From Thermoleophilia bacterium (GTDB lineage: Bacteria > Actinomycetota > Thermoleophilia > Gaiellales > SKUG01): DNA of 48,164 nt. Numbering within the stretch: position 1 is the stretch's first letter; every line of letters begins with the position of its first letter. Below are positions 28,848 to 34,632 of this stretch, piece by piece. Made by a program: the position numbers and the translations under genes. Under the pieces are notes generated by a model, which ran no database searches, had not been told where the DNA came from, and saw only the letters and a list, made by a program, of their open reading frames with translations. Location of the stretch: positions 1 through 48,164 of the forward strand of contig JAOPYV010000164.1 of assembly GCA_025964435.1 (NCBI GenBank). Reading direction: 5' to 3'.

Positions 28848-30694
28848 CGTCTCGCTCCTGTCACGTGGTCACTCGTCTTGCGGAACACGGCCGCGGCACG
28901 TGCTCCAATCCCCGACTCATCGATGCCGCTGCCACCGAACCGCACGTCCTGCGAATCCACGACGCGCTCCCACTCCGACAACCCATCCGGGAGCAGGTCG
29001 GTGAGTGCTGCCGCATGCTCGTCGAAATTCCAGGCGACCAAGGTGTGGTCACCCTCCCACGCACGCTCCAGCGTCAGGCAGCGTGATCCCACCTGCCGCA
29101 CGATGCCCGCGGCCGGATCGAGATGGGCGATCGACGGAGCCGCTCGACGAAGGTGCAACAACGCCCGATGGAACGCGAGCAGCTGCTCGCCGCGCTCGGT
29201 CCCTCGCGCGTCCCAGTCGAGGACGGCAGACCGGAAGGTCGCCGGGTCCTGAGGGTCGATCGCCTGGTCGACGTCGCCGCCAGCGTGGGCGAACTCGCGA
29301 GCGCGGCCTGCGCGGACGGCCTCGATGAGTGCCGGATCCCCATGGCTGATGAAGTATGGGAACGGTCGCCGTTCGCCGTACTCCTCGCCCATGAACAGCA
29401 TGGGAACGAAGGGCGCCAACAGCACGACCGCGGCGACGAGCCGCAGGTCGTCCGGCCCGAGCGTCGTGGCGAGCCGATCCCCCACGAGTCGGTTCCCGAC
29501 CTGGTCGTGGTTCTGTGCGTAGACCACGAGGCGGTCGCCCCCGACCCCCGCTGCGCTGACGCCGTGGCGACGCGCGCGGTGCTGCGAGTACTGGCCGGTG
29601 TAGACGAAGCCATCCCGAAGTGATCGCGCGAGGTCGTCCACGCCCGAGAAGTCGGCGTAGTAGCCCTCGCGCTCGCCGGTCACCGCTACGTGGAGCGCAT
29701 GGTGGAAGTCGTCGGCCCACTGTGCGTGCAAGCCGGTGCCGCCGTCGACGCGCGGCGTGATCGTGCGCACGTCGTTGAGGTCGCTCTCGGCGATCAGCCA
29801 GCGGCCGCGCTCGGTCTGCTGGGCGAGCAGCTCGACGGCATCGGCCAGCTCGGCGAGGAAGGGTGTGGCTGACATGTCGACGATGGCGTGGACGGCGTCG
29901 AGGCGAAGCGCGTCGACGTGGAAGTCGCGGAGCCACATCAACGCGTTCTCGATGAAGCAGCGCCGCACCTCGTCGCTGCCCGCACCGTCGACATTCATGG
30001 CGGCGCCCCACGGTGTGCCGTGCAGCACCGACATGTAGGGGCCGAATCGGTCGAGGTAGTTTCCTTCGGGCCCGACGTGGTTGTAGACGACGTCGAGCAC
30101 GATCGCCAGGCCACGGGCATGCGCCGCATCGACGAGGCGCCGCAGCCCCTCCGGACCTCCGTAGGTCGACTGGGCGGCGAAGAGGTCGACGCCGTCGTAG
30201 CCCCAGTTGCGGCCGCCGGGGAACTCCGCCACCGGCAGCAGCTCGATGGCCGTGATGCCGTCGGCTGCCAGCTCGTCGAGCCGATCGATTACCGCGTCGA
30301 ATGTCCCGGCCTCGGTGAAGGTGCCGACGTGCAGCTCGTAGATGACGTACTCCGCCAAGGGGCGGCCACGCCACTGAGCGTCGGTCCACTCGAACGCGGA
30401 GTGGTCGACGACCTCCGACGCGCCGTGCACGCCGTCCGGTTGGGCCGCCGACGCGGGGTCGGGCAGCTCGAGCGGATCGCCGTCGAGCAGGTATGCGTAC
30501 CGGGCTCCGGCGGCGACGTCATCGACGCGTGCCCGGTAGTAGCCGCGAGGCCCCGCTTCCATGTCGATGGTTCGGGCAGCTTCATCGGCGGCGACGCCGC
30601 GCAGGACGATGCGCACGCGCTGCGCATGCGGCGCCCACACCGTGAAGGTGCAGGAGCCATCGTCGCTGGGGACTGCTCCGAGCCGATCGCTCAC
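28844..30694 (-). CDS. treZ: malto-oligosyltrehalose trehalohydrolase (TreZ)
   Basis: I place the start at the GTG at 30694, which overlaps the upstream stop as GTGA; this removes 25 unlikely Arg/Ala-rich track residues and leaves 616. The protein (EC 3.2.1.141) releases trehalose from maltooligosyl-trehalose. CBM48-like FTVWAPHAQRVRIVL is followed by YELHVGTFTEAGTFDAVIDR, the TreZ-typical VVYNHVGPEGNYL, the nucleophile in VDALRLDAVHAIVD, the acid/base in LIAESDLNDVR and the third Asp in AQNHDQVGNR. The length and the LFMGEEYGE motif are standard. It lies between malQ-glgB and glgX in the operon. Confidence 0.94.
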   Translation of the reverse strand: MSDRLGAVPSDDGSCTFTVWAPHAQRVRIVLRGVAADEAARTIDMEAGPRGYYRARVDDVAAGARYAYLLDGDPLELPDPASAAQPDGVHGASEVVDHSAFEWTDAQWRGRPLAEYVIYELHVGTFTEAGTFDAVIDRLDELAADGITAIELLPVAEFPGGRNWGYDGVDLFAAQSTYGGPEGLRRLVDAAHARGLAIVLDVVYNHVGPEGNYLDRFGPYMSVLHGTPWGAAMNVDGAGSDEVRRCFIENALMWLRDFHVDALRLDAVHAIVDMSATPFLAELADAVELLAQQTERGRWLIAESDLNDVRTITPRVDGGTGLHAQWADDFHHALHVAVTGEREGYYADFSGVDDLARSLRDGFVYTGQYSQHRARRHGVSAAGVGGDRLVVYAQNHDQVGNRLVGDRLATTLGPDDLRLVAAVVLLAPFVPMLFMGEEYGERRPFPYFISHGDPALIEAVRAGRAREFAHAGGDVDQAIDPQDPATFRSAVLDWDARGTERGEQLLAFHRALLHLRRAAPSIAHLDPAAGIVRQVGSRCLTLERAWEGDHTLVAWNFDEHAAALTDLLPDGLSEWERVVDSQDVRFGGSGIDESGIGARAAAVFRKTSDHVTGARR

Positions 30695-33600: not shown

Positions 33601-34632
33601 GAGCGCGGCGAGCTGCTCCTCCATCACCCACTGCGCGTACTGGTGGTAGTGCTCACCCGCGGCGCCGCTGCCATCGAGCGTCGCGCGGAAGGTCGCATAC
33701 TCCCCGAGCAGCGCCCGGTCGGTTCGCCAGCGATCGAACGCTGCGCGACGCGGTCCCTCTGCCTCGAGCAGCGCCCGGGCGCAGGCGTCGATGACCGGTC
33801 GCTTGAGCGCGTAGACGCCGCGATGGTCGACGTGGGCGAGCGCGCGCAGCTCCTCGCGCTGCTGGAGTGCGGCGGTGTTGCGCACGAGCTCGCGCGCGAC
33901 GCTCGATGCAGCCAGCTCGGGCAGTGCCTCGACGTCGAGGTACGCCTCGTTCCAGAAGGTGCGGCTGATCGGGGCATATGGGCTCGGCTCGAAGGGCTCG
34001 TCCAGGAAGGTCGCCAGCAGCGGCGTCGATCCGAGCAGCCCGCCACCTGCGGCATCGACCAGGTCGAGCAGGTCTCCGGCCGTGCCGAGGTCGCCGATCC
34101 CCCAGTCACGCTCGGAGCGTGCGGCGTAGAGCGGCACGAACAGCCCCCAGGTGCGGTCATGGGAGGTCGAGTGCGTATGCCGGGGCGCGCTGATGATCCG
34201 ACTGACGGCGCGTGTCGAGCCCGACTCCAGGACGAGGTCGTGGTAGCCGTGGGGAAGCCCCGCAGGCAGCGTCGCGCTCCCGCTGCGATCGAGCGCGATC
34301 TCGCGCTCCTCGCCGCCTTCGAGGTGCAATGTCAGTCGCACCGATCCGGTGAGGCCGTGACCCAGCCGCACGGGCGTCGCCGCGCCGTCCCAGACCACGT
34401 GCACGTAGTCGATCGGCAGGCGCCCGCGACGCGTCCGCCACGCCTCCAGCGCCGCCTCGGATTCCGCTGCCGTCGCGACCTCCACGCCGAGCGCGCCCAC
34501 GACGGAGCGCAGCGCTGCGTCACTCGCGCGCACGAGCTCGCCGCCAAGGTCGGTGTATTCGGTCTGCACGCCGAGCTCGCGAGCCAGCTCACGCAGTGCC
34601 CGCGTGTCGTCATTGCGTCCATGCTTCGCCAC
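30691..34632 (-). CDS. malQ-glgB: fusion of 4-alpha-glucanotransferase (MalQ) and 1,4-alpha-glucan branching enzyme (GlgB)
   Basis: One uninterrupted frame of 1313 residues (GTG start, 3 nt after the treS-mak stop) encodes two complete enzymes. Residues 1 to about 640 are GH77: an N-terminal domain (RALRELARELGVQTEY), the nucleophile in RIDHVMGLHRLFWIP, the acid/base in VIGEDLGTVPP and the third Asp in NTHDTPTWAKVWQG. Residues from about 661 are GlgB (GH13_9): CBM48 GTWFAVWAPNAASVSVVGDF, nucleophile in VDGLRVDAVASMLY, acid/base in AEESTAW, and LPLSHDEVVHGKGS. The joint is a short linker (VIESSTEEPSVTMSVAAP). It should couple chain disproportionation with branching on the same glucan. An in-frame ATG with GAGGAG upstream lies at the junction, so separate GlgB could also be made. 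Confidence 0.93.
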   Translation of the reverse strand: MAKHGRNDDTRALRELARELGVQTEYTDLGGELVRASDAALRSVVGALGVEVATAAESEAALEAWRTRRGRLPIDYVHVVWDGAATPVRLGHGLTGSVRLTLHLEGGEEREIALDRSGSATLPAGLPHGYHDLVLESGSTRAVSRIISAPRHTHSTSHDRTWGLFVPLYAARSERDWGIGDLGTAGDLLDLVDAAGGGLLGSTPLLATFLDEPFEPSPYAPISRTFWNEAYLDVEALPELAASSVARELVRNTAALQQREELRALAHVDHRGVYALKRPVIDACARALLEAEGPRRAAFDRWRTDRALLGEYATFRATLDGSGAAGEHYHQYAQWVMEEQLAALANRGGAGLYLDLPLGVHPDGFDRSHFADLHAPGISIGAPPDPLAEGGQDWGLPPLHPERLRASGYDYQIASIRNLFQHADAARIDHVMGLHRLFWIPSELGAGDGVYVSYAAEEQWAIICLESVRANCVVIGEDLGTVPPVVREQMREHAARRTYVMQFELFPGDVDAPIRPAPADALAAVNTHDTPTWAKVWQGLEPSGRQQLISYLRDRGLLSDGNESSSVPAEAVHDAALKLLAQGDASAVIANVEDFWGETEPQNVPGTGSHDAPNWVRRTARTVEELGRDRELQTLLRELTDLRAGKVPVIESSTEEPSVTMSVAAPTTRVRHDVCLLTAEDIHLFAEGTHNQLHRRLGSHPHEVDGVAGTWFAVWAPNAASVSVVGDFNGWNPEDAPLATAGVTEGSGIWHGWIPGIGSGEHYKYQIVSTVDGYQVQKADPFARLAEIPPHTASVVWDGSYAWEDDAWMTERGAHNSLDAPMSVYELHVGSWMRVPEDGSRSLSWRELAPKLIEYIERTGFTHVQFMPVMEHPFFGSWGYQTTGYFAPSSRFGTPDDFKHLVDELHRAGVGVLLDWVPSHFPTDEHGLAFFDGTHLFEHADPRQGFHPDWKSAIFNYSRNEVRSFLLSSALYWIEEYHVDGLRVDAVASMLYLDYSRKDGEWIPNVHGGRENLEAIDFLRQLNSDAYGKEPDIAMIAEESTAWGGVSRPTWTGGLGFGMKWDMGWMHDTLEYFGRDPIHRQHHHDELSFRQVYAYTENFMLPLSHDEVVHGKGSLLDRMPGDTWQQFANLRLLYAYMWTLPGKKLLFMGCEFGHVEEWDHDSSLDWRLLDRPEHAGVLALIHDLNRIYREEPALHEVDFDPAGFSWVDTSDATGSVYSYLRHGRTPGAPDVLVVLNATPSVHENYRIGVPTAGHWTELLNSDAEQYWGSGSGNFGGVDTTPVPIHGHEWSLNLTLPPLGCVVLRAPSTEDRRA

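Follow-up and report, generated by a model that had tools for sequence, protein, structure and literature searches.

The window, by which we mean the whole 48,164-nucleotide stretch of DNA that was analyzed, carries a tightly packed operon in which the genes follow one another on one strand in the order glgE, treS/mak, malQglgB, treZ, glgX and treY (Table 1). The treS-mak gene overlaps glgE by 4 nt and ends 3 nt before the start of malQ-glgB, and the likely GTG start of treZ overlaps the malQ-glgB stop codon (GTGA), the start of the listed treZ open reading frame being located upstream of this likely start. The operon may begin with the GH13 gene that precedes glgE. The co-location of glgE, treS-mak and glgB on one strand agrees with the GlgE-pathway setting proposed in a preliminary description of this DNA. 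About 4 kb past the treY end of the operon, genes for a ProV-like ABC ATPase and a ProW-like permease of the betaine/choline type can be observed (18529-20291, plus strand); an osmoprotectant uptake system of this type is located near a compatible-solute (trehalose/glucan) operon. Elsewhere in the window, the GH3 N-terminal domain of a 1010-aa protein (5831-8863, minus strand) is confined to the last third of the chain (residues 683-1003), and Pfam matched nothing in the first two thirds.

Table 1. Features of the operon and of its malQ-glgB gene, and further loci at which MalQ and GlgB share one frame.
Feature	Position	Strand	Basis or remark
GH13 enzyme, 799 aa, maltodextrin glucosidase/cyclomaltodextrinase-like	40040..42439	-	68 bp upstream of glgE; best profile matches below cut-off
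GlgE, 673 aa	37950..39971	-	Pfam GlgE_dom_N_S, GLGE_C
TreS-Mak fusion (trehalose synthase + maltokinase), 1105 aa	34636..37953	-	Pfam, NCBIfam
malQ-glgB fusion gene, 1313 aa, GTG start	30691..34632	-	Frame open in 4/4 genomes of the genus
MalQ (GH77) part, residues 1-645: MalQ_N beta-sandwich (76-150) and GH77 barrel; E. coli MalQ type	32698..34632	-	Pfam, NCBIfam, 4s3p match E 1.4e-66
GH77 catalytic Asp D429 (E. coli MalQ position 448)	33346..33348	-	4s3p alignment; invariant within genus
GH77 catalytic Glu E477 (E. coli MalQ position 496)	33202..33204	-	4s3p alignment; invariant within genus
GH77 catalytic Asp D529 (E. coli MalQ position 548)	33046..33048	-	4s3p alignment; invariant within genus
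Inter-domain linker, residues 646-675 (~30 aa)	32608..32697	-	Length varies among congeners; pLDDT very low, model weak as a whole
GlgB (GH13_9) part, residues 676-1313: CBM48, GH13 barrel, C-terminal all-beta domain	30694..32607	-	Pfam, NCBIfam, 6joy match E 3.5e-221
GH13 nucleophile Asp D985, motif GLRVDAV	31678..31680	-	Solved GlgB structures, alignment across fusions
GH13 acid/base Glu E1038, motif AEES	31519..31521	-	Solved GlgB structures, alignment across fusions
GH13 third Asp D1106, motif SHDEV	31315..31317	-	Solved GlgB structures, alignment across fusions
TreZ (listed ORF)	28844..30769	-	NCBIfam; likely GTG start further in
GlgX debranching enzyme, 710 aa	26715..28847	-	TIGR02100, 988 bits
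TreY, 782 aa	24364..26712	-	TIGR02401, 799 bits
Fused loci L077, L094 (submitted as Deltaproteobacteria)			MalQ then GlgB, one frame; L077 cut by contig end
Fused locus L102 (uncultured proteobacterium)			MalQ then GlgB, one frame
Fused loci L112, L121 (Gemmatimonadota)			MalQ then GlgB, one frame; glgE and treS-mak directly upstream
Fused loci L128, L135, L146 (Actinomycetota)			MalQ then GlgB, one frame
Fused locus L130 (Acidimicrobiia)			MalQ then GlgB, one frame; glgE and treS-mak directly upstream
Fused locus L152 (Legionella)			MalQ then GlgB, one frame; glgE and treS-mak directly upstream

The malQ-glgB gene is a single uninterrupted frame of 1313 codons in which two complete enzymes follow each other, MalQ first and GlgB second. 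In the MalQ half, Pfam matched MalQ_N (PF21226, E 2.3e-9) and Glyco_hydro_77 (PF02446, E 6.6e-78), and the NCBIfam malQ model TIGR00217 scored 236 bits (cut-off 205.65); with its MalQ_N domain, this half is a long amylomaltase of the E. coli type. The GlgB half matched CBM_48 (PF02922), Alpha-amylase (PF00128) and Alpha-amylase_C (PF02806), as well as the NCBIfam GlgB model NF003811 (964.7 bits, cut-off 741). It is a short-type branching enzyme without an N1 domain, whereas E. coli GlgB has this additional domain in front. By these matches, the frame encodes a GH77 4-alpha-glucanotransferase (disproportionating enzyme) fused to a GH13_9 branching enzyme, both activities being predicted. The single chain and its coordinates had already been given in the preliminary description, to which the minus strand can now be added, and its claim that each half retains all three acidic catalytic residues was confirmed by the alignment of the GH77 part with 4s3p and by comparison of the GH13_9 part with solved GlgB structures and motifs. 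Within the genus, all six of these acids are invariant; across phyla, they are located in conserved motifs, and the GH13_9 triad is unchanged among the fusions compared.

As the source assembly is a draft (213 contigs, 88% complete), the possibility that an assembly or sequencing error had joined two adjacent genes was considered. Three separately assembled genomes of the same genus, with about 32% protein divergence, were used for this comparison. Two of them encode full-length open fusions with 67-68% identity to the source protein; in the third, the frame is open through the junction up to the contig end, and the remaining part of GlgB is located on another contig. None of the three contains a stop codon in the fusion frame, and the codons of the linker have a third-position GC of 0.83, like coding sequence. 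A stop or frameshift near 32650-32720, regarded in the preliminary description as a finding that would speak against a fusion, is contradicted by these independent assemblies. Because the junction is open in all three congeners, we rejected the artefact, which is scarcely conceivable. Between the PNWVRR motif and the beginning of GlgB lie 49-63 residues, depending on the congener, and the alignment of fusions revealed short and variable linkers with no conserved interface motif. An AlphaFold model of the fusion (mean pLDDT 64, pTM 0.50), in which the linker is among the lowest-scoring parts, is too weak for judging domain packing. In the source species, the linker also contains an in-frame ATG with the sequence GAGGAG 12 nt upstream; this ATG is not kept in the congeners, and it could possibly yield some free GlgB in the source species only.

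The origin of the fusion can be approached through a sister family of the same order, in four genomes of which malQ and glgB are separate genes with a 4-nt stop/start overlap (ATGA or GTGA). The gene order in this family is glgE, treS-mak, malQ, glgB, treZ, glgX and treY (malQ being the first gene on two of the four contigs), so that the operon of the fused genus matches it except that a single gene replaces malQ and glgB. The fusion would accordingly have arisen from translationally coupled neighbors such as the overlapping pair retained in the sister family. Since overlapping malQ and glgB genes lie in different frames, a frame change would have been required besides the loss of the stop codon, together with the acquisition of a new short linker. 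A genome of another family, G040, has a GlgB that is 56% identical to the source GlgB, and a second one with 65-69% identity on contigs C464 and C416 (L065 and L066), which is possibly the result of gene transfer or contamination. These two contigs were rejected as fusions, as their stand-alone GlgB has its own ATG start and no MalQ in front.

Searches for the MalQ-GlgB junction in 129 genomes of the order and in 399 genomes of the class detected the fusion in this genus only, and no additional joined match came from a sample of 397 genomes of the phylum, in a search that distant MalQ halves may escape. A novelty confined to one genus was nevertheless rejected, since a scan of named genomes with the source MalQ part as query found MalQ and GlgB in one frame at 10 of 80 loci (Table 1). 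Apart from L077, these fusions are 45-54% identical to the source fusion over the fused region. At many other of the 80 loci, malQ and glgB lie side by side on one strand; the statement of the preliminary description that the two genes are normally separate is right in general, although this gene cluster often has them next to each other. In quickly built trees, 7 changes of the fused state are required for MalQ and 6 for GlgB, of which strongly supported branches force only 3 and 2, respectively, and a single clade of all fusions was rejected (p-AU 6e-5 for MalQ and 0.005 for GlgB). These trees and the rejected clade make several independent origins of the fusion likely, with the reservation that the trees do not separate gains from losses.

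Other joined frames were encountered during this analysis. Fourteen long GlgB frames from Actinomycetota were checked by hand and rejected as MalQ fusions, as MalQ was in frame in none of them; in six (L172-L177), GlgB is preceded in frame by a maltokinase-like region (PRK14705 type). The N-terminus of GlgB is thus a repeated fusion site, if the maltokinase-like-GlgB, MalQ-GlgB and GlgA-GlgB proteins are counted. At seven loci (L138, L139, L142, L147, L149, L154 and L155) belonging to Proteobacteria, Holophagaceae and Nitrospirae, a single frame of about 1700-1855 aa encodes MalQ together with TreY (PRK14507 type).

Regarding the pathway, no GlgB besides that of the fusion was found in the source genome, which is 88% complete, and no second GlgB was found in any congener. 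The branching activity is therefore probably needed by the organism, which argues for a functional branching half, unlike that of the GlgA-GlgB fusion of Waddlia. The GlgC and GlgA-Coryne models gave no match over cut-off in the genus, so glucan is probably supplied by the GlgE route. Two congeners have a glycogen phosphorylase, which was not detected in the source genome at its 88% completeness. As the genus has a second, stand-alone GH77 gene, disproportionation would not be left to the fused MalQ alone. In P. aeruginosa, MalQ together with TreS/Pep2 converts maltohexaose to maltose 1-phosphate in vitro, which indicates that trehalose is not needed for MalQ to supply GlgE, and branched glucan particles are made by GlgE with GlgB (PMC8084333). 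All steps of this MalQ/TreS-Mak/GlgE/GlgB route are encoded by the source operon.

Based on sequence comparisons, we propose, with a probability of about 0.78, that this gene of an uncultured actinobacterium (class Thermoleophilia) encodes a bifunctional MalQ-GlgB enzyme of the GlgE/trehalose-alpha-glucan cycle, which originated by fusion of coupled neighbors and acts as two independent enzymes, each with its own active site, on a flexible tether. The MalQ half would disproportionate maltooligosaccharides released by GlgX and others; the resulting maltose would be phosphorylated by Mak and polymerized by GlgE, for which the longer chains could serve as acceptors. The GlgB half would cut the GlgE-extended chains and re-attach them as alpha-1,6 branches. 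As GlgE adds maltosyl units to linear chains, and long linear chains are what GlgB cuts and re-attaches, MalQ does not have to hand over short chains to GlgB; the channeling of GlgE products into branch points raised in the preliminary description would be an additional, hypothetical effect. The main effects of the fusion would be a 1:1 supply and co-localization on the glucan, with no need for direct transfer of substrate between the sites. The flexible tether is supported by the differences in linker length and by the very low pLDDT of the linker in the weak model. The second GH77 of the genus and the possible start within the linker count against this explanation, as does Waddlia, which shows that an N-terminal fusion can impair GlgB.

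Two other readings were weighed against this one. Functional coupling may itself have been selected, if MalQ beside GlgB alters the length of the chains around branch points or allows channeling of chains from site to site. The recurrence of the fusion across phyla, often in GlgE operons, and the rejection of a single clade are consistent with such selection; adjacency within the operon alone, however, predicts recurrence, given the many related loci with neighboring malQ and glgB, while the linkers have no common interface motif and the structure model offers no usable view of packing, and we regard this coupling as unlikely. Rather improbable too is the bolder proposal that the fusion has been selected repeatedly as a device of GlgE-type glucan synthesis, its tether either remodeling the outer chains at new branch points or linking the recovery of maltose to branching; if true, it would give the glucan a chain-length profile beyond the reach of separate enzymes. 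It is very unlikely that one of the halves lacks catalytic activity and functions as a scaffold or a glucan-binding module, as the invariance of the catalytic acids and the absence of another GlgB in these genomes weigh against it. Such a role has its precedent in Waddlia, where the branching part of GlgA-GlgB is inactive, switched off by its N-terminal partner (PMC7935935). The stand-alone GH77 could moreover back up the MalQ half, which diverges faster in the genus (~60% identity, compared with ~76% for the GlgB half).

An apparent curiosity thus becomes a pattern, in which malQ and glgB, neighbors in GlgE operons, have probably been fused several times in unrelated bacteria. The fused genus and the sister family with separate genes form a natural pair for distinguishing an effect of tethering from a by-product of operon adjacency, and MalQ-GlgB fusions are predicted to be natural two-activity enzymes for starch modification.

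The preliminary description named no characterized MalQ-GlgB fusion. That the architecture is unknown is not supported, in view of the ten further fusions and of a published one: for Neisseria sicca (spelled "suica" in the main text, "sicca" in the legend), a review reports a malQ-glgB fusion whose N-terminal part is MalQ and whose C-terminal part is GlgB (Chem Rev 2024, PMC11046441, section 3.3 and Figure 4 legend). The name "MalQ-GlgB" gave one chance match only in our literature search, which found no characterized example, subscription journals being mostly outside its coverage. The source fusion belongs to an architecture already in print, whose recurrence, including within GlgE operons, we did not find described. 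The Neisseria fusion, compared here by its published description and not by sequence, has the same architecture and order and is not reported as characterized, but it belongs to another phylum and has an amylosucrase/glgP/glgX context, whereas the source gene is located in a GlgE operon. The separate MalQ of the E. coli type (4s3p) and GlgB (1m7x, 4lpc) have the same catalytic domains and residues, in two proteins. Neighboring alpha-glucan enzymes are also joined, with different partners, in TreS-Mak, which is located in the same operon as the source malQ-glgB, and in MalQ-TreY (PRK14507), GlgX-MalQ (PRK14510), the Mak-like-GlgB proteins of the PRK14705 type and Waddlia GlgA-GlgB.
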